A DNA stretch of 64,000 bases from Isoetes taiwanensis (Eukaryota > Streptophyta > Lycopodiopsida > Isoetales > Isoetaceae). This document shows positions 1,490-59,600 of this stretch, piece by piece. The notes beneath the pieces are model-generated. The model searched no databases, was not told the origin of the DNA, and worked only from the letters and a program-made list of their open reading frames with translations. The position numbers and the translations under genes are program-made. Position 1 is the first letter of the stretch, and each line of letters starts with the position of its first letter. The stretch spans positions 9,565,284-9,629,283 of the forward strand of contig JAJEKV010000052.1 of assembly GCA_021234155.1 (NCBI GenBank). The letters run 5' to 3'.

Positions 1490-4390
1490 AACTTACCTGG
1501 AGTCCACTAAACCACTTAACCACTAAACTAGGCTTAGTCCACTAAACCACTAAACTAGGCTGTCCAGGTTAACCACTGGAGATGTCAAGTGGTTAACCTG
1601 GACAAGTTCAAGTTGTCTAGGTTAACCACCTGGACAACCATGTCAAGTGGTTAACCTAGACAAGTATAGTGGTTAACCTAGACAAATGATCCACTTAGGT
1701 GGTTAACCTGGACTCGTGTAGTGGTTAGCCTAGACAAGTATAGTGGTTAACCTAGACAAGTATAGTGGTAAACCTAGACAAGTTTGTCTAGTGGTTAACC
1801 TGGACAAGTTTGTCTAGTGGTTAACTTGGACAACCCAGTCTAGTGGTTAACCTGGACAAGCATAGAAGGGAATATTTAAACCAACGGTTCTTTCTAACGG
1901 TTCTTTCTAGCCTTCAAGCTATATATACCCTTGCCTTAGTTGTTCTTGGTAGAAAGTTAGTTGGTTTCAGTTGAGTTCAGTAGTAGTCGAGTTTCTTTGC
2001 TTACTGTTCAAGCCAAGTGACAGATGGTGAGGACCCGACAATAGCTTCGTGAGAGCAGTGCCATCAATGCCCACACTCTTGAGGATATTCTCGTCCACTT
2101 GAATGAAATTCAGGAGGATGTGGGGCTAGATCTCGCCCAACCTAACAACATCAAAACGTTCAAAAGTAAGCATGTTCTTTCTTGTCTTCCTTCATATTTA
2201 TGTTCTACTTTCATATTAATCTTTTCATGATCCCCTCATGGTTCATGCAGAGGCAGTGGAGAATGGGGAATTCCTAGACCCCCTAGACCTCACACCGACC
2301 TTAAAACCTAGGGCATTTGCAACCAGAAGGCTTTGAGGGCATTTATGCGGGAAGGCAACACTCTAAAAGCTGAATTGAAGAGGCGGCGAAAGTGTATTAT
2401 CCTAGGGGCAAACCCTATCGCTTTGAATGATGTGGGATTTGTGCTAGCTGGGGCGTTATGGCAACGGATGTTGATTCAGGCAACACTCCAAAAAGTGGCG
2501 TGTCCCGGATGATGATGACTCGATACATGTATTTCTTACCATCATAGGGTTTGTGAAGATGCTTTTGTAGAGAAGTTTCATAAAAAGTCTCATGTTTACC
2601 GGTTTATAATGAGGTTAACCTAGACATGTGGTAAACCTCGACATGTAAAGTCCTAGACATGTAAGTCTAGTGGTTAACCCGGACATGTAACTCTAAGTGA
2701 TTAACCTAGACATATAAGTCTAGTGGTCTTGCAAGTCTAGTGGTAAACATGATGTAACTCTAGTGGTAAACCTAGACATGCAACTCTAGTGGTTAACCTG
2801 GTTAAGTCTAGTGGTTAACCCGACATGTAAGTCTAGTGGTAAACCCTAGACATGCAACTCTAGTGGTTAACCCGACATCCATGTATAGTGGTAAACCGAC
2901 ATGTAAGTCAAGTGGTAAACCTAGACATGAATGGTTAACCCGACATGTAACCTGGTGGTAAATGTAAGTCTAGTAGTTAACACCCGACATGTAACTCTAG
3001 TGGTAAACCTAGACATGTTCCTCTAGTGGTTAACCTAGACATGTAAGTGTAGTCCTCCATGATATTTAGTGGCATGTATAGTAAACCTAGACATCAACTC
3101 TAGTGGATTACATGTAAGACTATCCTAGTGGTCCCGGACATGGCATGCAACTCTAGTGGTTAACCTAGACATGCAAGTCTAGTGGTTAACACGGACATGT
3201 GTAAACCTAGACATTAAGTCTAGTGGTTAAAAGTTTCATGTTTAACCTAGACATGCAAGGGTAAAAAACAGTCTCATGTGGTAAACCTAGACATGTAAGT
3301 TTAGTGGTTATATGCAAGTCTAGTGGTAAAACCTAGTGGTGGTAAACCTAGACATGTAAGTCTAGTGGTAAACCTAGACATGCAACTCTAGTGGTTAACC
3401 TGGTACATGTCTAGTGGTAACTCTCTAGTGGTTAACCTAGACATGTAACTCTAGTGGTTAACCCGGACATGCAAGTCTAGTGGTTAACTGACATGTAAGT
3501 CTAGTGGTAAACCTAGACATGACATGCAACTCTAGTGGTTAACCTAGACATGTAAGTCTAGTGGTAAACCTAGACATGCAACTCTAGTGGTAAACCTAGA
3601 CATGTAAGTCTAGTGGTACAAACCTAGACATGTAAGTCTAGTCAAGTCTAGTGGTAAAACCTAGACATGTAAGTCTAGTGGTAAACCTAGACATGCAACT
3701 CTAGTAGTTAACCTGGACATCCATGTATAGTGGTAAACCTGGACATGTAAGTCTAGTGGTAAACCTAGACATGTAAGTCTAGTGGTTAACCCGGGACATG
3801 TAACTCTAGTTAACCCTAGACATGCAAAGTCTAGTGGTTAACACATGTAAGTCTAGTGGTTAACCTCGACATGCAAGTCTAGTGGTTAACCTACATGTAA
3901 GTCTAGTGGTAAACACATGTAAGTCTAGTGGTTAACTGTAACTCTAGTGGTAAACCTAGACATGCAACTCTAGTGGTTAACCTAGACATGTAAGTCTAGT
4001 GGTTAACCTGGACATGTAAGTCTAGTGGTTAACCTGGACATGCAAGTCTAGTGGTAAACCTAGACATGTGGTAAGTCATGTGGTAAACCTAGACATGTAA
4101 GTCTAGTGGTTAACCTAGACATGCAAGTCTAGTGGTTAACCTGGACATGTAACTCTAGTGGTAAACCTGGACGTGCAACTCTAGTGGTTAACCTAGACAT
4201 GTAAGTCTAGTGGTTAACCTGGACATCCATGTATAGTGGTTAAACTAGACATGCAACTCTAGTGGTAAACCTAGACATGTAAGTCTAGTGGTAAACCTAG
4301 ACATGACATCCATGTAAGTTTAGACATGCAACTCTAGTGGTTAACCCGACATGTATAGTGGTTAACTAGACATGGTAAAACCTAGACAAG
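1490..4390 (+). repeat. Left array of ~26-bp repeats (GTGGTTAACCTAGACATG type)
   Basis: Dozens of degenerate copies of a roughly 26-bp unit containing GGTTAACC or GGTAAACC, then AGACATG, then TCTAGT. Spacing slips often, with partial units, which fits an old minisatellite. Copies at 1500-1600 run the other way, giving 15-bp inverted pairs (GTCCAGGTTAACCAC with its complement) at 1562-1603 and again near 1620-1660. Non-repeat sequence occupies about 1865-2590. The array at 7.6-9.4 kb is the same family in reverse orientation. Confidence 0.9.
1919..2400 (+). pseudogene. Promoter-like start and first exons of an unidentified broken gene
   Basis: Non-repetitive sequence inside the left array. 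A TATA-like CTATATATACCC at 1919-1930 lies about 105 bp before an ATG at 2024. The frame from that ATG meets a stop at the seventh codon (2042-2044), then stays open to a good splice donor (AAAA/GTAAGC, GT at 2166). Past the stop it encodes an Asn/Glu/Leu-rich stretch. An acceptor CATGCAG at about 2245-2251 precedes a second exon-like stretch with an in-frame stop. I do not recognise the product. Its place within the array suggests it was a gene of the same mobile element. Confidence 0.35.
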
Positions 4391-7189: not shown

Positions 7190-7630
7190 GGAAACAAAAC
7201 TCGGCCATAGCCAAAACAGTCGAGCTCATGCCTTCAGACAGGTTTACACATGGCAAACAGCCATTTGCTCTTTTCAACCATTAGATTTCATTTCAAATTT
7301 AAAAATATGCTATGTTCAACCATTAGATTTCATTCAAATATAAAAATTGTCTCGGGCTCACCATTTGCAGAGTAGGACAATTCCAAGGCAGATAGTCGAG
7401 GGTTTCTTATAACCCGGTGCGGTGTGATTGATATGGGACTCTTCAATTATGATTGATATGGGACTCTTCAACTATGATTGATGTAGCATTTAATAATATA
7501 ACAGGCAATGCAGGGGAATAATATAACATGATTGATGTTCCGTGCAATCCACTTTCATTATCTAAGTTGCATGGCACTGTTCCACTGTAATTGGTGCAAC
7601 ATTTTCTACCATGCTTCCTAATTATTTGCC
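7190..7630. other. Spacer upstream of ULP1-like gene
   Basis: No gene recognised. Short direct repeats occur: CAACCATTAGATTTCATT at about 7278 and 7318, and TTGATATGGGACTCTTCAA at about 7429 and 7453. It would contain the 5' flank of the minus-strand ULP1-like gene. Confidence 0.45.
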
Positions 7631-9360
7631 ATTACACTTAGTTGTCCAGGCTAACCATTACACCCACATACCCACTAGACTTAGTTGTCCAGGCTAACCA
7701 TTGCACCTACATGTCCATGTTTACCATCTCAAATCTCAAGTGCATGTCCAGGTTTACCACTAGACTTAGTTGTCTAGGTTTACCATTACACTTGCACACT
7801 GGACATGGTTGTCCAGGTTTACCATTGGACTTGCATGTGCAGCCTAACCATTGCAACTACATGTCCAAGTTTACCATCTCAAGTGCATGTCCAGGTTTAC
7901 CACTACACTAAGTTGTCTAGGTTTACCACTAGACATGGTTGTCTAGGTTAACCATTGCACCTAGGTTTACCACTACACTAAGTTGTCTAGGTTTACCACT
8001 AGACATGGTTGTCTAGGTTAACCATTGCACCTACATGTCCAGGTTTACCATCTCAAGTGCATGTCCGTTTTACCACTAGACTTAGTTGTCTAGGTTGACC
8101 ATTACACTTGCATGTCCGTTGTCAAATTGGTTGTCCAGGCTAACTATTACACTTGCATGTCCAAGTTTACCATTGGACTTGCATGTCCAGGCTAACCATT
8201 GCAACTACATGTCCAAGTTTACCATCTCAAGTGCATGTCCAGGTTTACCACTACACTAAGTTGTCTAGGTTTACCACTAGATATGGTTGTCTAGATTAAC
8301 CATTACACCTACATGTCCAGGTTTACCATCTCAAGTGCATGTCCAGGTTTACCACTAGACTTAGTTATCTAGGTTTACCATTACACTTGCATGTCCAGGT
8401 TTACCATGTCAAATTGGTTGTCCATGCTAACCATTACACTTGCATGTCCAAGTTTACCATTGGACTTGCATGTCCAAGCTAACCATTGCAACTACATGTC
8501 CAAGTTTACCATCTCAAGTGCATGTCCAGGTTTACCACTACACTAAGTTGTCTAGGTTTACCACTAGACATGGTTGTCTAGGTTAACCATTGCACCTACA
8601 TGTCCAGGTTTACTATCTCAAGTGCATGTCTAGGTTTACCACTAGACTTAGTTGTCTAGGTTTACCATTACACTTGCATGTCCAGGTTTACCATGTCAAA
8701 TTGGTTGTCCAAGCTAACCATTACACTTGCATATCCAAGTTTGCCATTGGACTTGCATGTCCAGGCTAACCATTGCAACTACATGTCCAAGTTTACCATC
8801 TCAAGTGCATGTCCGGTTTACCACTACACTAAGTTGTCTGGGTTTGCCACTGTCGCATGGTTGTCTAGGTTAACCATTGCACCTACATGTCCAAGTTTAC
8901 CATCTCAAGTGCATGTCCAGGTTTACCACTAGACTTAGTTGTCTAGGTTTACCATTACACTTGCATGTCCAGGTTTACCATGTCAAATTGGTTGTCCAGG
9001 CTAACCATTACACTTGCATGTCCAAGTTTACCATTGGACTTGCATGTCCAAGTTTACCATTGCACCTAGTTGTCTAGGTTTACCATTAGACATTGTTGTC
9101 TAGGTTAACCAGCACACCTACATGTCCAGGTTTACCAAATATGCTCTGGAAGTCCAAGTTTACCGCTAGACTTAGTTGTCCAGGCTAACCATTGCACATA
9201 CATGTCCAAGTTTACCATCTCAAGTGCATGTCCAGGTTTACCACTACACTTAGTTGTCTAGGTTTACCATTACACTTGCATGTCCAGGTTTACCACTGGA
9301 CATGGTTGTCCAGGCTAACCATTACACTTGCATATGTCACTAGGTTAACTACTATGGTTG
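7630..9360 (-). repeat. Right array of the same ~26-bp repeat, inverted relative to the left array
   Basis: Tandem degenerate units such as TTGCATGTCCAGGTTTACCA and TAGTTGTCTAGGTTTACCA. The reverse complement of the left-array unit matches this strand. Superimposed is a longer period of roughly 270-300 bp: the segment running from a LEFT-type unit (CATCTCAAGTGCATGTCC) to the next recurs at about 7725, 7880, 8050, 8230, 8330, 8510, 8610, 8800 and 8905, so blocks of several units were amplified together. Confidence 0.9.
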
Positions 9361-18090: not shown

Positions 18091-18547
18091 TGGTTGGGGA
18101 AAAAAGGTTTTAATAAGAAATAGGGGTTTCTTTTGAGGCATGGATCATTGTGAAAACAAAAAAAAAATAAGATTGTGTATTGAACGGGAGCAAATAATTG
18201 AAACGAGAGCAAAAGGAATATTCCTTAAAGATCTCCTTATTTTTTACAAAAAAGGGGTTAAAATAAGGTTAAAAAAAAGGTGCATAAAATTGTATTTTGA
18301 CTCCCCCCTCCCCCCCTCTAATGACTAAATTTTTTTGTGCAACGGGAGAATTCCTTTTTAAAGTAACACTTTTCGTTGCAAATAGAATGTTCTTGAAGTA
18401 TATTTTTAGAGAGAACCACTAATTTAAGAGGATAAAATATTTAACAAAAAATTGAAGTAAAGTCTATAACTGAAATTGTAGTATTCTCAAAATTTAAAGA
18501 TAAAATCTTCATATTCACATGCAAAATTTACAGTATTTTTCTAAGAC

Positions 18548-21500
18548 TCAGTTATGTACAAAAGTGTGAGTAGTGATGAGAGAGGGATCCAATACGTCAT
18601 AATATTCATTTATACCATTCTCATCATCTTCACTTCTTTCACTGTCACTCGAGGAAGTGCCCGAGTTATCTTCCTCATCACTATCAACAGATGGTGAAGC
18701 ATTGCCACCACCACTTCCTTCTTCATCCTCTTCCTCGTAATTACAAGACTTTTTAAGTAAATTGATAGTCCTCTGGCGCAGACGATTGCCAAATTTCAAT
18801 TTGAAATCATAGCACAATATAGTCACATCACTTAAGTTCAGCTCATCCCTACAACCCACTTTCTTGGACTTCCTCCCTTTTCCTTGACTTCTCATTTCTA
18901 ACTCATACCTACCTTCAAAAGCATTTTCTGAACGTGTCGCAAGCTAGTGAATCTTGAGTTTTAGTTACTAAACCTTCCTCCTTGACTATGTCAAGAACTT
19001 TTGCTATCCAAAAAGGTCGACCTTTGTCATCCTCCTCAGTTGGAAGAGCAATCAGTATACCTTTGGCAATTTCTGTGATATTACCGCGTCTTGATCCGAG
19101 GTACATGACTCAGTCCTCATCTTCCTCTACTGCAGGTGCTATGGTAGCATTGCTTGGACATGTCTGGTTCTGGGGTAGATGGAAGGTGTTAGGCCATTGA
19201 AACGGGTCTTGCAACTGTCTTAGAGCTAGGTTTTGCAAAACAATTTTCTGTTCAAGAAAGAAATTTCTCCACCACATGTGATCTTCTTGTAAGAAGTACT
19301 TAAAGCCAGAGGAAATTCCATTTTCAATGGCTTTTAAAGATGTCAATGGGGTACTTTTCTTCTGCTTGGACTTCTTAGGATTTTTGAGAGGAAGTTGCTC
19401 AGCACGTTCTATGAAGCAAATGTCTGGAACAGATTTAAGGAAGTGCAATCCCTCTGGTAGACTCCAATCCTTAGTTGTGGTGTACTTCTTTTCCTGTAAG
19501 AAGTTTTGTCCATCCTTCAAGTAGAACTTGATGTGATGTTGAAAGGTAAGATCATTCAATTTGTTCACAGCTTGTTCTCGGAACGTTGAGGGAAAACAGA
19601 CTCTCTAAAGTCAGCAGTCTTTTTAAGAAGCTCGACCACTGGAATGGGAGTGTAAGAATCTTCAATGATTCGAACTAAAGTAGGAAGACAAAAAGTTTTC
19701 TTCCTTCTAAGACGCACGAAAAATTTGCTGAACATCTGGCCAATCTGATCATGAGTGTGCCCTACAAGTAAAAATTCGAGCTTTACTTTCCTGAAGATCC
19801 TTAGCTCCACTAGCATGGCACAATAAGCAAAGAGTGTTTGATTCTTGTTCTCCCTTGTAGTGTTGTCAAGTTGCAGATAGAGCGCTGGTAGTAGTTGCTT
19901 TTGCTCGCATAAGACCTTGTTAAGAATTATAATTAAGAGGTTCGAGTCACCATGCAAGTTTGGATACGTCAAATATACTTTGCACTTTAGACTTCCTTTG
20001 AAGACCATAGCTCCTACAAGGTGGACTTTAACAAAACATTCCTCTGACACATCTTTTGGAATATTTAGGAAATGGGGTAGAGTTGTCTAGAGTTGTCTTT
20101 TTTTGATCCATTCCGTCAATTACAACAGACATATATTGCAGTGGATGTTCGAGACTTTTTTCTGTGTTTGGCAAGCTTTCTTCTCTGTGCTGCTTGTTGT
20201 TTACGATGTCTAGCAAGGTTCTGTTGCTCAATATCTGTTGAAGAAATTGTGTCAAAACATTTTCTTTAAAATAAGTGAGAGATTGGAGAACTTGAGTTTA
20301 CTTCTTTCGACCTCTGTCTTTGCAATTTCTCGTTGAATTTTTAATTCTGCACACCTTGAGCAAATAGACATTCTATGTCTCTTAGGAGTTTTCACAAGAC
20401 CGAATTCACTTTTCCAGAGTCTAGTGAAGTGTGAGTAAGAGATATGCTGAAACTGAATGCAAGTCTCTTTGTATTCTTTGAAGACATTTTTTTTTTGTAA
20501 TGTTGTCTGTCAAATGATACTTGTTGCTAGTAGGCAAATTCTCACATGTTTGTCTAAAATATTTCTCCATCCATGTCACAGCAGCCAAGGCATGCATTGT
20601 TACAACTCTTCTTGGTCCACAGTGATCATCAATTGCTGGGTTTTTATCCAGTCTTTTATGTATTTGAGACATTCTTGTGGACCCTAAACAGTGGACAACC
20701 ATAAAGCATTTTTGGCAGACTTGTTCACGGTTAATGTAGTGCAAGAAGGTGTTACGGTCTGGTCTTACATGATAAGCTAAGTAGGCATTCTGGTCTGCCA
20801 GTATCATTGAACTGTAGTTATCTCTAACTGCTCGTAATTTAGCCATGTTAAATCTGTTGATGCAACCCATTGAGCAGCATTTAGTTCTTAGAAGTCTCCT
20901 CATTTTGTGTTCATCCATAAGGTTTTTTCTTCTTACAGAGGAGCATGCTCTCAAACTAAAATCCACCTTGAATTTCTTCGAAGATTGGCTGGAGAACATG
21001 TAATCTCGTTGCTCCTCGTTGGTGTCTTCATCTTCTGTTGAAAGTTCAACTCTAGGGGTGACCTTCTCTACCCTGAGTGGTGTGTTTATAGAGGAAAACA
21101 GACCACGTGAAGCTATTCCCGGATAAGGCGGTGGCACAGTGTTAAAAGATGGTGACGGTCCATAAGAGGTTGTGGCAGCAGCTATTCTTGTACCATCTTG
21201 AAAAGGAGTTCTTGCAAACATCTCCTTTACCGCAGACTGGAATCCTGCAAATCCATGTGTGACAACTGTTGTGTGAACATGAGTACATGCTGCAACATTG
21301 TCCTCATTTGTAGTGAAGTCTTGGTGAGAGAGATTGTAGAGAATCTCACAGTCTTCTGTACATTCTGCATTCCTTGTGTTTTTGCACGAAGGAGGAGAAA
21401 CTACAAATGGTGGGGGTAGCTTGTTCTTTGTGTTTTTGCACGAAGGAGGAGAAACTACAAATGGTGGGGGTAGCTTGTTCTTAACCACTTGTTGTGGCCT

Positions 21501-21809
21501 CTGTAGTTCTGGGGGATGGAAGAAAGGGTGGTGGCAGTCTGCTACAAACAGGTGGTGATGTTGTGTAAGGAGGAGGAAGGGTAATTCCTACTGGACTTAA
21601 TGACGGGTGATGGCAGTCTGGTACTTGCTGGACTTGGAGTGTCTTCGAGAAATCAACAAGGATCTTGTAGAGGTAGGAGTCGGAGAAGCCCGGTCTTCAG
21701 AAGAAAACATGTTCTGGCCAAGCATTTCTTCAGAACTAGAAGAGCTTGAGACAACAAAAGGTGTTGGAAGTTTGTTCACGAAGCGGTTCGTCATCTTCAA
21801 CAACTGCAA
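18548..21809 (-). pseudogene. DUF7869-type DDE-like transposase gene, frame-damaged
   Basis: Read from 21809 down: a Pro/Ser-rich disordered start with a perfect 54-bp repeat (18 residues), then a Cys-rich region (TKCCSMGCINRFN, then REQVCQKCFMVVHCLGSTRM) resembling the zinc-binding N-terminal half of DUF7869 proteins. Next SYSHFTRLWKSEFGL...CSRCAEL at about 20300-20410. The core follows: VVIDGMDQKKT (Asp codon 20117), YLQLDNTTRENKNQ (Asp codon 19867) and FLLVGHTHDQIGQMF (Asp codon 19750), a DDD/E-like spacing. The C-terminal part has KGRPFWIAKVLDI (about 19010) and an acidic Ser/Glu tail ending 18548. Breaks: a shift at the A10 run 20486-20495, one near 21500-21600, one near 20150, and a stop before 19106. 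Assigning it as a transposase is inference from the conserved acidic triad. Divergent from the gene at 22.6 kb. Confidence 0.72.
21376..21483 (-). repeat. Perfect 54-bp tandem repeat inside the transposase-like gene
   Basis: Two identical 54-bp units (21376-21429, 21430-21483) that keep frame and encode KNKLPPPFVVSPPSCKNT twice. A third diverged version, NKLPTPFVVSSSSSSEE, is encoded near 21730-21770. Confidence 0.9.
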
Positions 21810-21854
21810 AGTAGTGTGGAGACATGAGAAACTTTCTCGACCGCAGAATGTTTC

Positions 21855-22529
21855 TTATTCCCGAATACAAGACCACACTGTTCAAGTGGAAGTCCTAGTA
21901 ACAATTAAGCGAAAGATAAACTAAAAGTTATTCCGAAATACAGTGGAGCAGGAAAATAAGATAACGTATTCCATTTCACATAGAAAAAGAGCAGGACATA
22001 AGGGGTACCTTTAAAAGGAAATTTTGGAGCTCTCACTTCTGTATTCTAGTCTCTGAGTTCTAGATGCCAGCGCCAATGCCCTTGATTTTAAATACAGAGA
22101 CTGTATTCCCGTGTGCATAGAGAAATCATGGACGGGTGAGTGCAAAAAGTACATTCTATGTTCATTTTCCCTTCTGTTGCCTTTTTCGGAATACACTTTG
22201 GCTTCTGTGAAGAACCGAAAGTGTATTCCAGAATACACTTTCGCTTTAGACGAAACTGAAAGTGTATTCCAAAATACTTTCGTTTTCCTCTGAAGCCAAA
22301 GTGTATTCCGGAATACGCATTCGCTTCAGACGAAACTAAAAGTGTATCAGTTTCGTCTGAAGGCAAGGTGTAATCCTGTGTAGAATTTACCTACTTTTTC
22401 CTCTAAGGGGATTATTTTCTTGCACTTTTTAGACTACAAGAAGCCCTTTAAATCGTTGAAATTTGTGTTAAAAAGTCTTATATTTGTCATGTTTGAGTAT
22501 AGAATTCTCTTATTTTATTCCCGAATAAG
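21855..22529. promoter_or_regulatory. Divergent spacer with palindrome cluster 1
   Basis: Spacer between two head-to-head genes. Palindromic or near-palindromic sites built on GTATTCCGGAATAC: 21855-21868 (TTATTCCCGAATAC), 21929-21941, 22183-22200 (half site), 22216-22243 (CGAAAGTGTATTC and its complement around CA), 22257-22282 (imperfect), 22303-22316 (perfect) and 22515-22529. Links between sites contain CTTC(A/T)GACGAAAC and its variants. They could bind a dimeric protein, or form hairpins. The spacer is the only place both genes' promoters could lie. Confidence 0.75.
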
Positions 22530-22566
22530 ATTTTGTCTTCGTTTTATTTTCTTTTCTTTTTTTTCA

Positions 22567-25125
22567 GATTTTAACAACAACGTTTTTAGAGGCAAGACGG
22601 AAACAAGAAAGCTCCACGAAAAACATTGAAGGTGACGAAGAAACCTCACCAGCAGGCAAGGGTCCAGGAAACAAAGGAGTCTGCTGTGTATGAAAACTTC
22701 CAGACGCAGTGGTACATAACAAGGAGAATTGGAGTAAAGTACAACACACTAACTTTCCTCCACGTCTGTGGAAGTCCGGGTGGCAAAAGGTTTGATGACA
22801 AAGAGTTTAAATGCATGGGTGTCATCAGAGACATTTCCGAAGTTGCCAGTCAGTCTGGACAACAGAGACGGCTATCCTTCGGAATGTCTCAGGGATTCAT
22901 AGTTGTGGACCAGGCCTATTTTAGACTTGGTAGAGTGAGCCCTCAAGCTTTGTATAAGTACATGACTCATTACATTAAGCTGAGGCTGGCTGAAATCATA
23001 AGAAGAGTACAATCTACTCAAAGTGAGGATTTTGCTTGCAGCAAATTCGAAGATGAAGTAGTGGAAGAGGAGAAGCAAGACGATGCCTCTAGTCAGAAAG
23101 AACAGGAGGAAAGTCCTAGTGGTTCAAAAGAGCATCAAAGGAAGAGCCGGCCATGAGGCACCATTGCAGCAAAAGAGCAAAAAAAATGCAAGGTGCAGGA
23201 AATTGTGGTGCAAGAGATTCCAGAAGAAATGCCAAAGAAGAAAAGAGGAGAAGAGAGGTCGCCATTAAAGAAAAGAAGGTGGACAAGACCTCAGAGAGAA
23301 TGGAAGAAATAAACTTCCACAAGTATGTGCAAGACGTCATGTATTTGCCAATAACTTCCATGAGGTTGCCACCAAAGAATGAAGCTGGTGAACGCCCTCT
23401 TCAAGTTCGAAAGATTTATGCTGGTCACTTAAGGAACCTGAAGGATAGGATCAAGGGCAACCCTAATGCCCACATTGCTCCAATTGTCATTCTCATGGAC
23501 AGAACCCAGTGCATGGACCCCAAGGAGTACGACAGAGAAAATGCAGACACTTACATGCATTACGTTCTAGGGGCAACCACGGTTTTAAGGCAAGGAGGCA
23601 GTTGTACAAGGAGAAAAATAACCCGAGATACCTCTCTGTCCGTTGTGCTATTTACTGTGGCCTGACGGACAAAGAAGCGAAGATCGTTGCCAATATGCAT
23701 AATGCTGACAATGAGTACAAACTTAAAATGAGTTTCGTCCACAAGATTAGGTTCATGCACAGGGAGTATGTGATATTTAAAGAAAAATGTGGAGAAGATC
23801 TGAAGAAACCAGCAAACTCCTTGGAGTTGAAGGAAGTGTATACTATCGAGTGTTGCCTCAAGTACGACGAGGCCAACAAATGATAGTCTCTGATAGCCCA
23901 CGACAACTGGTTTCAACTAGCTTTTAGAGATGGCAGAGTAAGTGCTTTTTGTATTCCGGAATAACCCTACAGTTTTCCCATTAACAATTTTTATCTGAAT
24001 ACAGATCTGGGATCTTCAGAACGAGATTTTCAACATGTTTGAGAGAGGGGAGTTGAAAAGCAAAGGAAAGGTCTCCAACAAGAAAAAAGGCTCCGACGTT
24101 CCAAAAAAGGAGATGACTATAACTGCCTGGAGAGAAATGCAGAGCTTCACAGATATGGACTTGCTCGAAACGCTACTGCAGAAAGTTGTGGACAAGGAAT
24201 TTACGCTGGAGGAAATGTCCAAGGAGCTGCACAAGTATGTTGAGCGTCACACCCTTTGTTTTTCTTTTGTTTTTTTGGAGTAGGAGTCACATTCATCAAA
24301 GTAAAAAAGTTTTTTGTGGCACATTTGCTTAACGGTGCACAAGTGTATTCCGGAATACGTCTCTCCCCTGATTCATGGCAAAAGTATATTCCAAAAAATA
24401 CTTTTCTTCACACTGAAGCTAAAGTGTATTCCGGAATACACTTTAGCTGCGCAAAAGGGCATAACATATTCTGGAATACACTAGTGCTTAGTTGTAAAAT
24501 AAAATTGTATTCCGGAATACACTTGTGCTTTGAAGTGTATGGTCTTTGTATTCCAGAATACACTTTAGTTGCCTCTGTGTACCGACTACGTTTTTCGTAG
24601 AAAGATTGATGTTGTGGTTATCTTTCAGCCAAAAGAAAGCCATAACATGTCAAACATGTTTGATCGAACAATTAAACATTGACAGTTGGGATAGATGTAA
24701 AGAGCTTTATCCTGTCGCAACTTCAGACGAACGCATCATCCAGTACGCGCCAAATTTTGAGGGCTGGATTGTCTTTTTGTTTCTCCTTTTTAGTTTTTCC
24801 GTTTCTGATTGTTACAGTGTGTTTTTTATTATAGAGCAAAAAGAAAAACAAAGACCTACCGGAGGGCTTCATGTACCTGGTAAGGACAGCACGGGAGGAG
24901 AGAATGTTAGCGGACAGGCGTGTTGTAGATGCTGAGCCCTTCGACTATGAACGCTTTACTATATTCGATCAAAACAATCTGTTTTGTATAGTTCACGGTG
25001 ACTGCACGAAGTTGTCCGGATCAATCAAGCCTCAAGATTTCACCTTGATAATAGCCAACCTACTATATGGCTTCAAGCTTAAGGACAGCCGCTACGACGA
25101 CCAACCTTTAAAGAACTCTGAGTTC
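22567..25125 (+). pseudogene. ParB/Srx-like domain plus N4/N6 DNA methyltransferase gene, truncated and frame-damaged
   Basis: First exon follows an acceptor TTTTCAG (22567); ATG at 22626. Residues 1-176 are unrecognised and end at 23156; the next frame starts at 23153, an ATGA overlap best read as a shift. It then reads YLPITSMRL...RKIYAGHLRNLKDRIKGNP...APIVILMD (23345-23500), like the first part of ParB domains. After a one-base slip in a G run (about 23570) comes GNHGFKARRQLYKE, then YCGLTDKEAKIVANMHN, the GNHR-type box and following helix of ParB/sulfiredoxin-like proteins. Exons at 23990-24234 and 24627-24760 are joined by plausible GT/AG introns. The last exon (from 24840) reads FCIVHGDCTKLSGSIKPQDF then TLIIANLLYGF, matching the start of a beta-class amino-methyltransferase, where motif IV is (D/N/S)PPY. 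The prolines are leucines here. Motif I (FxGxG) should follow but homology ends near 25125. Confidence 0.68.
23951..24562. promoter_or_regulatory. Palindrome cluster 2, within introns of the ParB-like/methyltransferase gene
   Basis: TATTCCGGAATA at 23952-23963; GTATTCCGGAATAC at 24345-24358; a perfect 32-bp palindrome at 24417-24448 (left half AGCTAAAGTGTATTCC); an imperfect site at 24467-24478; TGTATTCCGGAATACA at 24506-24521; and TGTATTCCAGAATACA at 24547-24562. All but the first are in the presumed intron 24235-24626, spaced 30-75 bp apart. The core is the same as in cluster 1. Confidence 0.85.
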
Positions 25126-26600
25126 AATGCTTTTGTCGACGGCACCTCTATGCTTCAAAATTTGCTCTACCAAATCGATTCCAAATCCTCTCAAATTTGA
25201 GGTACTAATTTTGATAATTTTTTCTAATATCCTTACACAAGAATTGGCAAAATTCTCTCTCCATCTTCGTAATCTCAAAAGAGCATTTACTCTCAAACAA
25301 TTAGGGAACTGGCCTTAAGGTCGCTTTTTCTGTTTGAATAAGTGATATGGAGTTCAGATCATCACTTATTATGGAGAACTGGCTTGTGTTGGTAAGAAGT
25401 CAGGATTTCCATCAAAACACTAGTAATAATTCTAGTTGTGCAAACAGCTTTACATATAGTCTTTACTACTAATTTCGCTAGTCCATGTGGCACTTATTTT
25501 CGTAGGTCTATTAAAGAGTCTATTCTTTCGTATTGTGTCGAAGGCTTTATGACGAGTATGTGATATGTGGTTGAGAGTGTGTGGTTTGAAACCTGCCTGT
25601 CCCTATGCCCTTTTCTGTCATTTACTTGACCTTTGTTCTAGTACCATTCTGTTCCATTTTGCAAAAACCAAGCAGATCATTATTGTTTTCCAATTTTTAT
25701 CTACTTTATACCTTGTTAAATGTTGTCATTTCATTGGTATGCTCTCATACTGCGTTGTTGATCATATTTGCGGCTTTTTCCCCTCCAGCTTTTGACACTT
25801 TTGTTGTTAAATCTTCTAGATTCTAAGTTTTATTCCTTGCCAACTTGTGCAATGCATTCTCCATTTATTGATTCATTAGATGCACCATGTCTCTGTCATA
25901 TCTCCATCTATGATGCCCCTTTGTAATATAGTTTCTTCACATATATCTGCCAATTTATGGTGATCACTGCTTTACTTTTGCATTTTCTGATTCCTGGCCA
26001 GAATCTACAAGGTTTTCTGCTTATCCATGATGCTAATGTCTGGTCTTCCTGTAGGTTTTGCCATCTTTTCGTTCTTAGTATCTTTTGATTTTCTTTTTTT
26101 CTTTCTTGTAACTTTCTATTCTGTTGCGTTCTCCCCTTTCTTTCTTTTATTCTGTGTGCATTGTCATACCATATTGCACTTTTGAATTTGCTATATGCCT
26201 CTGTTTCCATCTGTTTTGTTTTATCTGAAGACCACCTTGTTAGCTTCCATTAGTGTTTTGCTCAATGTGTTTGTCCCTTCTTTTGCCATCTTGCCTGTCC
26301 AGTCAATTTCTTTCATTTTATCATTCATTTCTCTTGCTTTATCTTCTACTTGATCTTCATCTTAGAGTTCCAAGTGTCATATTTCTGCTTTTCATCTTTT
26401 TTTTTGTTGCCAAAGTCACTTGTAATGGCTGGTGTACTTCCTATTCCAATTGACCCATTTCCACTTGATGTCCTTAATTTGCTTTAATCTTTCGCTACAA
26501 TAATTACATACTCCACTATGCTCTTTTTCGTGGCCGTTTGATATGTGTATCCTCCACTACTAGGCCTCCTGCTTATTCTCTTACCATGTCTGCCCCACTT
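25126..26600. other. AT-rich non-coding DNA
   Basis: No gene recognised. The methyltransferase homology stops at about 25125, which suggests a breakpoint there. The rest is T-rich with short chance frames. Confidence 0.4.
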
Positions 26601-34683: not shown

Positions 34684-36118
34684 CTAGCATCTACTACCAA
34701 CACTACAATGGAGGGCACCAGCAGAAGCAGTTATTTGTGGAACTGACGCTGCTGGTCTAATGGCAAATCTTTGAGCTATGGTATATCCTGGATCGGCACT
34801 TCCACTTCCTGACTGTACAAAGAAGGCACCATTGAGGAAAATGTCTCCTTGAGATTTCCATATCCAGTTACTATTTCTACCAGAAGCTTCTCTCTTTGTT
34901 ACCTGCAATATACACGTCACAGAAGTGGCTCGAATTATATGTTTATGGGGGCAAAGCAATAAAATAGAAGTAATACCTGCTTCTGTGCACCAGCTGCATA
35001 CCAATTAGCTTCACTCAATATTCTAGGTCCTGCACTTCCTCCTACTGCATACATTAGCCAGTTCTCATAGTGGTTATTCACCACATGGGCGTAGCCAAAT
35101 CTAACCCTGCATTCGAAGAAAAAGAACATGTTATTACTTTTCTTACAACATGAATGTCTTGTAATATCATACCTAGGCATCCTTTCTACACATCCTTGGG
35201 AGAAGTAATTGTACACGACAGTCACTTTCATAGCCTTATCAGCACTGAAGCTGTCGGAATGTCCCAGAAGCATGACCTGGATAGATTTCAATAAAAAGGT
35301 GGTCAAAAAGTACGGATTTTATAGAAAAGATGGCATCTACCACTGACCTTGTCATGGTTAGTAAAGTGGTTGTTAGAGATGGTAACCATATTAGAGGCAT
35401 GGATAACATCAATAAGTCCATCAGTAGCATGGGAGAGAAAGTTATGATCGATCCAGACATTGTTAGATCCAAAGACAGCAATGGCATCACCGTCAGCGCC
35501 GTTACGGTCGCCAGTGTGGGTGACGGAGGTCATGATGGTACCGTGGGAGCCAGGGACGCAGTTGATGATGGTAAGGCCATGGATGATAACGTGGCTAGAG
35601 AATTGGACGGTAAGGCAGGGGCCACCGTTACCGATAACCACGTTGGCACCACGGCCGTCGATGGTGGTGTAACTATTGACCATGAGCTCCTGTTTGAGGC
35701 GGATGGACATGCTGGACGCAAACACGATCCAAATGGGCCCGATTTGGACGGTACCGTAGCGCAGGGTTCCGGGCGCAGGATGAACCGGGTCATCGCCAGG
35801 ATCTGTCACCACGTATAGCCTCCCACCCTTGCCCCCCATTGCATTCTTTCCAAACCCTACTGCGCAATCCGCCAGATGCATCCGGTTCTTGCTCCAGTTT
35901 GGGTCGTATCTCCAACAGTTGTCTATCACATTTCCTCCATAGCTGTACCTGTATAACAGAATTGAATTGAATTGAATTGTCCATAGACATAAACATTTGT
36001 CGAACTAGACTGCCATGCATTATTACCTCGGTGCTGGTGCTGATGCTTCTACCGGTGCAAATATAAGCTGAGAACATATAATGAGAACCAGGAGCATTAC
36101 ACAGATTGGTCGCGACAT
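34684..36118 (-). CDS. Pectate lyase, secreted (five exons)
   Basis: Pectate lyases (polysaccharide lyase family 1) cleave de-esterified pectin by beta-elimination in the cell wall and need calcium. Exons on the minus strand: 36118-36027, 35948-35348, 35276-35173, 35106-34977, 34902-34684, all with GT/AG borders and consistent phase. I start at 36118 because that Met opens a signal peptide ([20 protein letters not shown]) and a TATA-like box lies at 36222-36232; the upstream in-frame Met at 36223 overlaps the TATA. Mature protein: [58 protein letters not shown] (calcium-binding region), [22 protein letters not shown] (catalytic Arg region) and a Cys-ending tail. About 380 residues, the usual length. 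No stops or shifts seen. A broken copy lies downstream at 30.6-31.6 kb. Confidence 0.95.
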
Positions 36119-51829: not shown

Positions 51830-52839
51830 TGTCTTCATGAAAGTTCGCTTGAATCTGCCCAAGTTAAGAAGTTTCTTCAGGATAACCCATCCTACCGGCG
51901 ATTCCAAGAATAGTTAGACTCTTGATCCCGGAGGCATTGTACGAAGAGACTTTATGCATCCCGGTTACCCCAGGGTTTCTTGGGCCCTTTCCCCTCTACT
52001 TGCATTGGCATCCCGCATCGTCTCATGCTCATTACTTTTTTCCTGGCATCGAGGTGCGCCTTATAGTCTCTCGTGGCCTCGATCTATAATGGGGTTTGAG
52101 GTAGGTTCCTCTTTGTGTCGGATGATGATATTTGTGCATAAAGACCTTTCCCTAGAATGCTATGGTTCTCTTCTTGTATAGAAGATAGGGAAAGGAACGC
52201 TAGTTTTGGCGCCAGATCTCCTTTCGGACCCAGGCTTTCTTTGGCATAAGCCTGCTATAATGCAGACTCTCTTTGGCCCTTTCTTCCATAAAAGACTTGT
52301 GTCTTCCTGATTCCTCATCGGCGTTTCCTCTAAGCTGAATCTTGTTGTTGTATGGAGTTCCCCCCCTCCCATCTCTTGTTCTTCTATATAGGTTTTACTT
52401 TTCGTTCACAGTTGGCCAATGGGCTTCTGCATTTTTCCCAGCATAGCACATGGCGCTTCTAGAGGGCAACAGGGGGACGCCCCTCCGGGTCCAACCTATA
52501 TTTTCCTATCTCGGCGTAGCCCCGTGGCCTCCGAGGATCCTTATAGATCGTCTTTTAAATTTTTGATATTGCGTTCTTGTATTTCTAGTCCAACTTTATA
52601 GCTTGCTGACTCTTGACCCATAGATGGCTCCTAACACAGTTGACTGTCACATGTGGTTTGATCTTGTAGTTTGGAGCTCACTGATGTGCATGGGGCTGCT
52701 TTTTATATGCCCCTAGGTCGAGCCTATCTTATCTATTAAAATGGTAAGGTGTTGGGTTTCGTGCCGGAACGCCGCAAGTTACGCCGCATGCGGCGTTCCC
52801 TCTTCCTATTGCGACAGAGTTTTCCCCTTGCGTCTTGGC

Positions 52840-53262
52840 AACGACGATGTTGATCGAAGATGCTGATCGAAGATGCTTTGGGCACAAAAGAACTGTAGTG
52901 GCTCTGACCCACTGCAAGAAGGGTTGCGTCAATTCGTTGCTCAGAACAAATGTTCCTATTTGCTCAGAACAAATGGCTCAGAGCGTCTTCCTATTTGCTC
53001 AGAACAAATGGCTGCCCCATCGAACTGGTGGAGCCTATCGGTACAAGGCCTTCGAGGCCATTTTGCTGCTTGGGCGCCTGTACTTTGCCACTGTGGATAT
53101 GAGGATTAGGGTTCGTAGAGGTGGCCGTACCTCCCAGATCTATGTCATCCGCCAAAGCATTGCCAAGGCTTTAGTTGCTTATTATCAAATGTACGTGAAG
53201 AGCAGTCCAAGAAGAAAATAAAGGAAATCTGGCAGCTCTAATGGCCTGGTAGAGAACATTAT
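52840..53262 (+). pseudogene. RPS16: Ribosomal protein S16 (uS9) pseudogene 1
   Basis: uS9 is a component of the cytosolic 40S subunit. The frame reads [17 protein letters not shown], then [29 protein letters not shown] and [15 protein letters not shown], matching plant RPS16 in order and spacing without introns. Between the first two blocks a stretch is replaced by about three units of a CTCAGAACAAATGG-type short repeat. A one-base shift near 53194 leads to a premature stop; the correct continuation [12 protein letters not shown] is in another frame. The basic C-terminus (RGARSRYQKSYR in plants) is missing. Intron-free and truncated, so a retro-pseudogene. Confidence 0.9.
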
Positions 53263-56670: not shown

Positions 56671-59600
56671 TGTCTTCATGAAAGTTCGCTTGAATCTACT
56701 TTATGCATTCCGGTTACCCCAGGGTTTCTTGGGCCCTTTCCCCTCTACTTGCATTGGCATCCCGCATCGTCTCATGCTCATTACTTTTTTCCTGGCATCG
56801 AGGTGCGCCTTATAGTCTCTCGTGGCCTCGATCTATGATGGGGTTTGAGGTAGGTTTCTCTTTGTGTCGGATGATGACATTTGTGCATAAAGACCTTTCC
56901 CTAGAATACTATGGTTCTCTTCTTATATAGAAGATAGGGAAAGGGACGCTAGTTTTGGCGCCAGATCTCCTTTCGGACCCAGGCTTTCTTTGGCACAAGC
57001 CTGCTATAATGCAGACTCTCTTTGGCCCTTTCTTCCATAAAAGACTTGTGTCTTCCTGATTCCTCATCGGCGTTTCCTCTGAGCTGAATCTTGTTGTTGT
57101 ATGGAGTTCCCCCCCTCCCATCTCTTGTTCTTCTATATAGGTTTTACTTTTCGTTCACAGTTGGCCAATGGGCTTCTGCATTTTTCCCAGCATAGCACAT
57201 GGCGCTTCTAGAGGGCAACAGGGGGAAGCCCCCCCAGTCCAACCTATATTTTCCTATCTCGGCGTAGCCCCATGGCCTCCAGGATCCTTATAGATCGTCT
57301 TTTAAATTTTTGATATTGCGTTCTTGTATTTCTAGTCCAACTTTATAGCTTGCTGACTCTTGGCCCATAGATGGCTCCTAACACAGTTGACAGTCACATG
57401 TCGTTTGATCTTGTAGTTTGGAGCTCACTGATGTGCATGGGGCTGCTTTTTATATGCCCCTAGGTCGAGCCTATCTTATCTATTAAAATGGTAAGGTGTT
57501 GGGTTTCGTGCCGGAACGCCGCAAGTTACGCCGCATGCAGCGTTCCCTCTTCCCTCTTCCTATTGCGGCAGAGTTTTCCCCTTGCGTCTTGGCAACAACG
57601 ATGCTGATCGAAGATGCTCGTCGAAGATGCTTTGGGCACAAAAGAACTGTAGTGGCTCTAACCCACTGCAAGAAGGGTTGCGTCAGTTCGTTGCTCAGAA
57701 CAAATGTTCCTATTTGCTCAGAACAAATGGCTCAGAGTGTCTTCCTATTTGCTCAGAACAAATGGCTGCCCCATCGAACTGGTGGAGCCTATCGGTACAA
57801 GGCCTTCGAGGCCATTTTGCTGTTTGGCGCCTGTACTTTGCCACTGTGGATATGAGGATTAGGGTTCGTAGAGGTGGCCGTACCTCCCAGATCTATGTCA
57901 TCCGCCAAAGCATTGCCAAGGCTTTAGTTGCTTATTATCAAATGTACATGAAGAGCAGTCCAAGAAGAAAATAAAGGAAATCTGGCAGCTCTAATGGCCT
58001 GGTAGAGAACATTATCCCTAACAAAAGCGCAACGTTCTTGACATCTGGTACATTGTTTTCGTGCCAGCATCAATATGAGAGTCGCATTTGGTCTCAGACC
58101 CTGAGATGCCGATCTTCAGGCTTTGCAGTGCCCAAATATAGCCATGGCACTTTTTTGGGCATCCACTAATTCTTTACTGTGCATGCAGAGTCGAAGCTTC
58201 TGAAAGAGGATTATAAGCAATCATCATGATCATGATGCATACCAGCAAACCAGTGTATGCTCCATATCTCGCACTTTCTGCTTCTCGAACGTGTTTGCTA
58301 CAGCTTTTTTTTTTTTGCCCATCTGGTAGAACTTCTTCTTAAATTGGATTGTCTGCTCTATTTAAATTGTTTGTTTTGCCACACCTGTACATTGTGGCCT
58401 TATGGCTACTAAGCGGCATCAATTGTTTTCTCACTCTTTGGCTATTAAGGAATCGTGGAGGCTATTATTTGATCCGGAGAATACAACATGTTGCTAAGGA
58501 GAAGAGTGATATGGCATGAAACAGGAACGGATCAAGATGTGTAAAGATTCTGATATATTAGGTAAATCTGTGGCAATAATTTTGGTTTTACTTTATAGGA
58601 GGCTAAATTTGTGATCACTGAATAGGTCTTTGCAATGTAAAGGACATTTCCCATTCCTCTCTTCTTCTTTTTTTCCTGCATGCAGCTACTTGAACGGACC
58701 TAATCCTCTATGTTTCTAAAGCATAGTGATCGAATGAGCCTGCAAGGTCTGTTTTTATAAATACTGTTCTTATGTTAGGGAATAATTGTGAAGGCTTAGC
58801 ATTTTGCTATTCTCTCATTGTCCTAATAGATACATGTCAATCTAGATTCTGAATGACATGTTTGCTAATCAACAAGGTTAGAACATGTTACTATAAAGGT
58901 AGGAACTGCATTCACTTGAACTGAAACTTAGATTTCAGAATGTTGCACATGTGCTGAAATTTTGTTTGCAATAAAAAGCTAGCTAGCATTCTCTGAGAAT
59001 TTACTTTGCACTATAATCTCCATCATAATTGCATGTATTAGATGTGCACATTAATTTAGTTCGAAATAATATTTAGTTGCTTATTAGCAAATGTACATGA
59101 AGAGCAGTCCAAGAAGAAAATAAAGGAAATTTGGCAGCGGAATGGCCTGGTAAAGAGCATTATCCCTAACAAAAGGGCAACATTCTTGACATCTGGTACA
59201 TTCTCTTCCTTCCAGCATCAATATGAAAGTCGTGTTTGCTCTCAGTTAAGGACCATGAGATGCTGATCTTCAGGTTTTCAGTAGGCAAATGTAGCCATGA
59301 CACTCTTTTGGGTATCCATTGTTTCTTTACTCTGCGTGCAGAGCCGAAGCTTCTTAAAAAGGATTATAAGCTACTATCACGATGCATACCAGCAAACCCG
59401 TGTATGCTCCATAGCTCACACTTTCTGCTTCTTAAACATGTCTGCTACAGATTTTCTTTTGCCCATATGGTAGAACTTCTGCTTAAATTGAATTTTTTGC
59501 TCTGTTTCAATTGTTTATTTTGCCACACCTGTACATTGTGGCCTTATGGCTGCTAAGCGGCATCAGTTATTTTCTCTCTCTTTAGTTATTAAGGAATCGT

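Follow-up and report, generated by a model that had tools for sequence, protein, structure and literature searches.

DNA transposons of algae can carry a gene in which a ParB-like domain is joined to a DNA methyltransferase. The transposon Sola1-1_Ec32 of Ectocarpus encodes a ParB-like domain with an N4C/N6A methyltransferase, according to the available part of its description (PMC12477816), and the same text cites Iyer 2011 and Petroll 2025 for this domain pair in transposons of green and red algae. The algal proteins are proposed there to bind and modify their own element; the binding site is not named in that part of the account (PMC12477816). Among land plants, the accessible sections of two papers report Sola1 in Physcomitrella (PMC9033089) and a greater number of SOLA elements in Azolla than in Salvinia (PMC6786969). 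Here a relative is described from a 64,000-nt stretch of Isoetes taiwanensis DNA (the window, meaning the whole stretch analysed), which contains a decayed, right-truncated copy of a DNA transposon with two genes, one for a DUF7869 protein and one for a ParB-like/methyltransferase protein. On balance, we favour reading the locus as a defunct copy of a cut-and-paste transposon with two genes, resident in vascular plants and most likely of the Sola type, whose ParB-like part would bind a palindrome repeated within the element and direct methylation to the element's own DNA.

Because transposon-borne ParB-methyltransferases have been reported in algae, the kind is already known. So far as the literature was searched, what is new is the vascular-plant members, the compact two-gene form, the selection on both domains and the candidate sites: no vascular-plant ParB-methyltransferase transposon was found among the titles listed from the open-licence literature, and the term ParB is absent from the main texts of the Azolla-Salvinia and Isoetes genome papers.

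The two-gene element and its copies

The transposon is multi-copy in the I. taiwanensis genome. The last exon present in the window (24850-25140) gave 387 first-look candidates, the best 40 of which scored 81-100% identity (the window included); the following exon, not present in the window, gave 3588, of which 150 were scored at 81-98% protein identity, many of them free of stops. Both figures come from scored subsets, so copy numbers are lower bounds. The copy set comprises 26 fetched copies (20 plus 6; identified by L numbers) and the window, 27 sequences in all. Long blocks of the window segment share ~74-92% DNA identity with other genomic copies, and the last exon matches in all 40 scored candidates; for this reason the peptide blocks quoted by a first-pass annotation of the window (IYAGHLRNLKDRI, GNHGFKARRQLYKE, GLTDKEAKIVANMHN, IVHGDCTKLSGSI and LIIANLLYGF), all of which were recovered in place, are not due to chance.

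Four of the first 20 copies (L019, L022, L027, L028) start to align with the window at 18165-18173; in the remainder the homology begins later, or the fetched stretch began within the element or without its left end. None of the 20 has homology to the window past 25144, where the window copy stops abruptly; beyond that point the same copies stay alike for ~1.3 kb further in most cases. The rest of the window yielded neither the right end of the element nor the latter half of the methyltransferase. Both ends were recognised in seven of the 27 sequences. Whole copies are about 8.2-8.4 kb long (five of the seven span 8.15-8.44 kb); L019 (7.0 kb) and L022 (7.2 kb) lack some internal stretches. The terminal inverted repeats are imperfect and 25 bp long, the left reading AACAAGATTGCGTATTAAACGGGAG and the right, in reverse complement, AACAAGGTTGCAAATTAAACGGGAG, three mismatches apart. 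All seven copies have a 4-bp target duplication, perfect in six (L022 TTTT, L027 TGCT, L028 CATT, L029 TAAG, L031 GGTT, L032 ATCA) and matching at 3 of 4 positions in L019. In the diverged L033, which has a variant repeat and falls outside the end criterion, GTGA can be seen by eye flanking both sides. The inverted repeats and duplications enclose both genes, which were detected in 17 of the 27 sequences, and so bear out the central proposal of the first-pass annotation, an intron-bearing ParB-like/amino-methyltransferase gene within a DNA transposon, beside the probable transposase.

Sola elements, a group reportedly defined by Bao in 2009, make 4-bp target duplications. The Sola type is proposed here because the duplications, present together with terminal inverted repeats in all seven two-ended copies, agree with this trait. 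A virus or provirus is an unlikely origin given the inverted repeats, the duplications and the two-gene content; no dedicated search for viral genes was made. Directly downstream of the copy in L025 (8579-10000 in the oriented sequence) lies a second, much diverged ParB-methyltransferase element with the motifs ADIPYGF and DAFSGSGTT; the genome therefore has more than one such family, and this element was excluded from the family rows.

The minus-strand gene matches DUF7869 (PF25273, E 9.4e-45 on 19568-20050). It is taken as the probable transposase because it is the sole other gene recognised in the element, and it may be of the DDE kind; the adjoining "DDE-like transposase" annotated earlier is thus a DUF7869 gene whose DDE nature is presumed. 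AlphaFold modelled the window piece of this protein with a confidence (pLDDT) of 35.

The second gene is spliced and divergent from the DUF7869 gene, and joins the ParB-like domain to a beta-class amino-methyltransferase. In the window it is a pseudogene, interrupted by TGA at 23154 and TGATAG at 23881, shifted in frame near 23280 and 23570, and without the donor that should follow exon 5. Copies L029 and L031 have GT-AG introns at the boundaries inspected, and of the 16 copies (out of 26) that fitted the search pattern, 15 have GTAAG as the exon 6 donor. No stop interrupts the ParB-like and methyltransferase exons of L031, whose exon 5 is out of frame at its start and only partly entered in the product.

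The methyltransferase identity is firm because of other copies, not because of the window pieces: these and their joined read-through had no match to Pfam ParBc or N6_N4_Mtase, the read-through giving only weak matches to TIGR03764 (a ParB family; E 0.0071) and PHROG 30771 (E 0.011). In other copies N6_N4_Mtase (PF01555) is matched above its gathering score, with E 1e-17 and 3.6e-18 (the latter L031) and 65.3 and 66.8 bits (L027, L031) against a cut-off of 26.7, so that one of the two Pfam domains foreseen for the product was found and the other, ParBc (PF02195), was not. The L031 product aligns with CcrM (6pbd; E 1.8e-11) over a stretch that begins ahead of motif IV and extends past motif I, and PHROG 67 is matched in three of four rows (best E 1.3e-29). 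Beta-class enzymes carry motif IV, (D/N/S)PP(Y/F/W), ahead of motif I, FxGxG. Among 20 other copies motif IV reads DLPY in 13 and DIPY in 1 (the window copy has NLLY), and motif I, FSGSGTT, follows in the exon missing from the window; because IV precedes I, the predicted enzyme falls in the beta class, and other copies encode it complete. The expectation of intact copies with DPPY and FxGxG thus stood for motif I, motif IV being the variant DLPY. A DxPY motif IV points to N6-adenine rather than N4-cytosine as the target base, and suggests the same here.

Descent from a phage or bacterium, as the first-pass annotation supposed, is plausible by domain class; a close prokaryotic or viral relative was not found in the phage, plasmid and viral searches. 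Protein database searches with the broken window protein and with the ParB exon alignment gave no match among 2750 and 5742 candidates, respectively, and tblastn of the ParB region (Isoetes and Azolla versions) against phages and plasmids gave none. Viral contigs searched with the methyltransferase gave no match; with the whole protein they gave four loci whose match is confined to the methyltransferase part, and in two of these (L035, L037) the open reading frames (ORFs) are plain methyltransferases.

Exons of both genes bear a signature of purifying selection. The ratio of nonsynonymous to synonymous divergence (dN/dS, Nei-Gojobori) was taken between copies with mostly open exons, excluding pairs with dS <=0.1 or saturated; choosing open-frame copies lowers the ratios somewhat. 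It is 0.05-0.11 in methyltransferase exon 7 (19 pairs), 0.05-0.18 in exon 6 (25 pairs), 0.04-0.18 in the ParB region (15 pairs) and 0.22-0.25 in the N-terminal exon (4 pairs). In DUF7869 it is 0.07-0.71 (27 pairs), the high values including decayed copies and L027, whose probable misalignment raises its ratios. Among the pairs compared for the methyltransferase and ParB exons, dS ranges from 0.1 to more than 2; 35 of the 44 methyltransferase pairs have a value above 0.5. The ParB-like and methyltransferase domains are, judging by these ratios, both maintained by selection. The N-terminal region (window 22567-23260) evolves faster than either domain and could help in DNA site choice.

Palindrome arrays in Isoetes and Azolla-type elements

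The sequence TATTCCGGAATA, with up to two mismatches, occurs at 14 sites in the window against 2.1 expected, all of them at 21114-24560, inside the element. Between the two genes, palindromes at 22182, 22224, 22265 and 22304 are spaced by 42, 41 and 39 bp. A motif-free search lists ATTCCGGAAT first among palindromic 10-mers in 18 of the 27 sequences (11 times in the diverged L033, 6 times in L034); some of the other nine had little of the element fetched or kept. The consensus from 276 sites with at most one mismatch is approximately AAAGTGTATTCCGGAATACACTTT. Seven whole copies hold 83 sites at that threshold, and their 14,504 flanking bases none; every one of the 17 sequences in which both genes were detected carries four or more palindromes (up to two mismatches) between the two. 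Further palindromes lie in introns of the methyltransferase gene, and detected coding stretches contain only 5 of 340 sites. There are 204 spacings shorter than 120 bp; 118 of them measure 39-42 bp, and the commonest is about 41 bp. A search of viral contigs for a 16-base exact palindrome found none.

Relatives of the element occur outside Isoetes. Two 136-residue ORFs from public contigs share 75% and 66% identity with exon 6, and both end at exactly the last residue of the Isoetes exon. A methyltransferase scan of prokaryote genome contigs returned seven contigs (L039-L045), all from one metagenome-assembled genome (MAG) of an uncultured Trichormus sp., the genus of Trichormus azollae, the cyanobacterial partner of the fern Azolla. 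Because their genes are intron-split and one intron matches Isoetes in position and phase, these contigs are probably Azolla DNA binned with the symbiont; host fern DNA is a likely contaminant of this cyanobacterial MAG. The DUF7869 and ParB-methyltransferase genes are divergent in five of the seven (L040, L041, L043, L044, L045; DUF7869 match in L041, E 1e-51), and the left gene was not seen in L039 and L042. Identity between the Azolla-type and Isoetes proteins is 49-51% for DUF7869, ~40% for the ParB-like region and 27-47% for the methyltransferase exons.

Arrays of a different palindrome, AAGTCGATGC-NNN-GCATCGACTT, occupy the intergenic or pre-gene stretch in five of the seven contigs. Counting sites with at most five mismatches in 20, L039, L040, L043, L044 and L045 hold 9, 3, 5, 10 and 15, where 0 to 0.1 are expected (10 shuffles each). 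L041 has no array, presumably because its two genes abut (3592, 3499), and in L042 gene homology starts at contig base 153. Spacings cluster near 31, 41 and 51 bp, 33 of 37 being 40-43 or 50-54 bp; the periodicity statistic does not pick out 10.4 bp and the copies are not independent, so that helical phasing of the palindromes is only suggestive. Chance was rejected as a source of the palindromes on the counts in the window, the whole copies and the Azolla-type contigs. The Isoetes and Azolla-type palindromes are both 23-24 bp long and have the outer AAGT/ACTT in common; a changed core with place, length and array form kept is what would be expected if a DNA-binding protein coevolves with its site. 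The intron at 23938-24004, which contains an exact palindrome in the window, is not present in the Azolla-type genes L040, L042 and L043; intron gain and palindrome spread may be linked.

Proposed site-directed methylation and competing explanations

In the reading favoured here, the ParB-like part would bind the palindromes, as ParB binds parS, and would bring the methyltransferase to the element's own DNA, on which it would write N6-methyladenine (or N4-methylcytosine). The promoter region common to the two genes contains the palindromes, so control of both genes is the likely outcome; this would give a self-regulated supply of transposase and shield expression of the element from host silencing. 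A further-reaching version is put forward tentatively: the ParB-like protein would load at phased promoter palindromes, perhaps spread over the element in the way ParB spreads from parS, and methylate its own DNA at adenine or N4-cytosine as a self-addressed epigenetic system, protein and palindrome having changed together between the Isoetes and Azolla lineages. If that is true, a mobile element puts a mark of identity on its own DNA in a genome whose transposons the host labels with 5-methylcytosine.

Several points weigh against the favoured reading. We infer the fern origin of the seven MAG contigs from their genes, and both Sola membership and the transposase role of DUF7869 from features other than the transposase sequence. 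A host factor or the DUF7869 protein could instead be what recognises the palindromes. For the ParB-like region, every TIGR03764 score is far under the curated cut-off of 143.75 bits, and Pfam ParBc was unmatched in window pieces, other copies and the Azolla-type sequence; a search of PDB chains with the ParB-like profile gave no match, hhalign of this shallow profile against phage N15 ParB did no better than against three control proteins, and the AlphaFold model of the Azolla-type region was unusable (mean pLDDT 42).

The alternative that survives best, although we consider it unlikely, makes the palindromes sites of the DUF7869 transposase, or of its N-terminal part, serving transposition or self-repression, while the ParB-methyltransferase would work at other places, for instance over the entire element with no preference for particular sites. 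Binding to repeats within the element is common among transposases, and DUF7869 also differs between the Isoetes and Azolla types (by the identities given above), so that it could equally track the changed palindrome. Transposase sites are, however, expected near the termini, whereas in the 20 copies (left ends being available for some only) most palindromes are intergenic or fall within methyltransferase-gene introns, and few are found close to the right end.

It is quite unlikely that the region called ParB-like has another DNA-binding or nuclease fold and resembles ParB profiles by coincidence. That view draws on the missing Pfam family above cut-off and the missing PDB, phage and plasmid matches. 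Against it, a published Ectocarpus relative was given the ParB assignment independently, as far as the available text reports (PMC12477816), and TIGR03764 is the only NCBIfam match in all four rows searched (E 0.0096 in L026, 6.6e-5 in L018, 2.8e-4 in L029 and 6.8e-4 in L014), L018 spanning a mended frame change and the other three being unbroken over the matched part. PHROG 1033, a ParB-like family, is matched in one of three rows (L018, mended; E 7.9e-4), and PHROG 723 only weakly (E 0.13 and 0.26). The ParB-like domain of the first-pass annotation is therefore retained as a designation from these weaker profiles together with the Ectocarpus assignment, Pfam ParBc being unmatched.

Host regulation through the palindromes, for instance as heat-shock elements, is improbable. 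Some plant transposons are heat-activated, and TATTCCGGAATA includes TTCnnGAA of the heat-shock consensus, so that the Isoetes core amounts to two head-to-head half sites; but the conserved palindrome reaches past that core, and heat shock was rejected as a general explanation because the Azolla-type palindrome, in the same position, is without TTCnnGAA. Most improbable is that the methyltransferase gene is a dispensable passenger acquired by chance: many copies, including the window's, are broken, and giant algal transposons often bear accessory genes of unknown use, in the accessible account (PMC12477816), but the low dN/dS of the methyltransferase and ParB exons (0.04-0.18 at the dS range given above, somewhat lowered by the choice of open frames), the same gene-pair layout in Isoetes and Azolla-type elements and their common intron position and phase argue for long-term selection.

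Feature map and comparison with known systems

Table 1. Coordinates of the transposon copy and its parts in the window
Feature	Position	Strand	Evidence
Transposon copy, left end to truncation point, without right end	18166..25144	+	Homology to other copies
Left terminal inverted repeat	18166..18190	+	3 mismatches to AACAAGATTGCGTATTAAACGGGAG
Decayed DUF7869 gene (probable transposase) in three or more open pieces (19110-19568, 19565-20050, 20421-21488)	19110..21488	-	PF25273, ORFs
Non-coding stretch between divergent genes, seven TATTCCGGAATA-like palindromes (<=2 mismatches)	21856..22527	.	
ParB-like/methyltransferase gene, broken and 3'-truncated	22567..25144	+	Alignment to copies
N-terminal region, no known domain, in-frame stop 23154-23156	22567..23260	+	Translation, profile scan
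ParB-like region, with one frame change and two stops in the window copy	23261..23937	+	TIGR03764
Intron with one exact palindrome (23952-23963)	23938..24004	+	Copy comparison
Exon 4 (linker)	24005..24234	+	
Intron with palindromes at 24346, 24427, 24467, 24508, 24549 (spacing 81, 40, 41, 41)	24235..24628	+	
Exon 5, donor after exon lost in the window copy	24629..24767	+	
Exon 6, methyltransferase start, cut at 25144; motif IV NLLY in the window copy	24835..25144	+	

Elsewhere in the window, two long arrays of a ~26-bp repeat (around GTGGTAAACCTAGACATG) lie in opposite orientation at 1501-4374 and 7266-9333 and are 67-72% alike over about 1-1.7 kb, as if they were the long inverted ends of another element. 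By eye, the ORF at 840-1439 resembles a SWIM zinc finger of the MULE type, and a minus-strand ORF at 35303-35929 a pectate lyase. ORFs at 52835-53221 and 57582-57974 have a common C-terminal stretch, which we take to resemble ribosomal protein uS9/S16; they are probably repeated gene fragments. An Rfam scan of the window gave nothing at gathering score.

Of the systems to which the element can be compared, CcrM and other beta-class adenine methyltransferases share the order of motif IV then motif I, DxPY and FSGSGTT, the alignment with CcrM covering ~245 residues; the transposon enzyme differs in being joined to a ParB-like domain and split by introns, and it is ~25% identical to the best phage enzymes among the matches listed. 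KDZ transposons of fungi are said to carry TET/JBP genes (a PNAS report of 2014), and so also bear a DNA-modifying enzyme, but that enzyme is unrelated, and their transposase is not known to be related either. For the Sola elements of land plants the host group fits, and the parts of those papers available mention no methyltransferase for them (PMC9033089, PMC6786969).

The closest likeness is to the algal transposons. The green and red algal proteins, compared here through the citing paper and the portion of it available (PMC12477816), have the same domain pair in other hosts. Sola1-1_Ec32 of the brown alga, compared by description and not by sequence, has the same pair on the strand opposite the transposase and inside a DNA transposon; it measures 21.5 kb against 8.2-8.4 kb for the Isoetes element, and the accessible account describes no palindrome array (PMC12477816). 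The Isoetes element agrees with the algal type in having a ParB-like domain and an N4/N6 methyltransferase on the strand opposite DUF7869, the presumed transposase, within a transposon. To this it adds a candidate site whose sequence differs between Isoetes and the Azolla type while its position is retained, which makes the algal binding proposal directly testable and bears on whether plants carry sequence-directed N6-methyladenine or N4-methylcytosine deposited by a mobile element.

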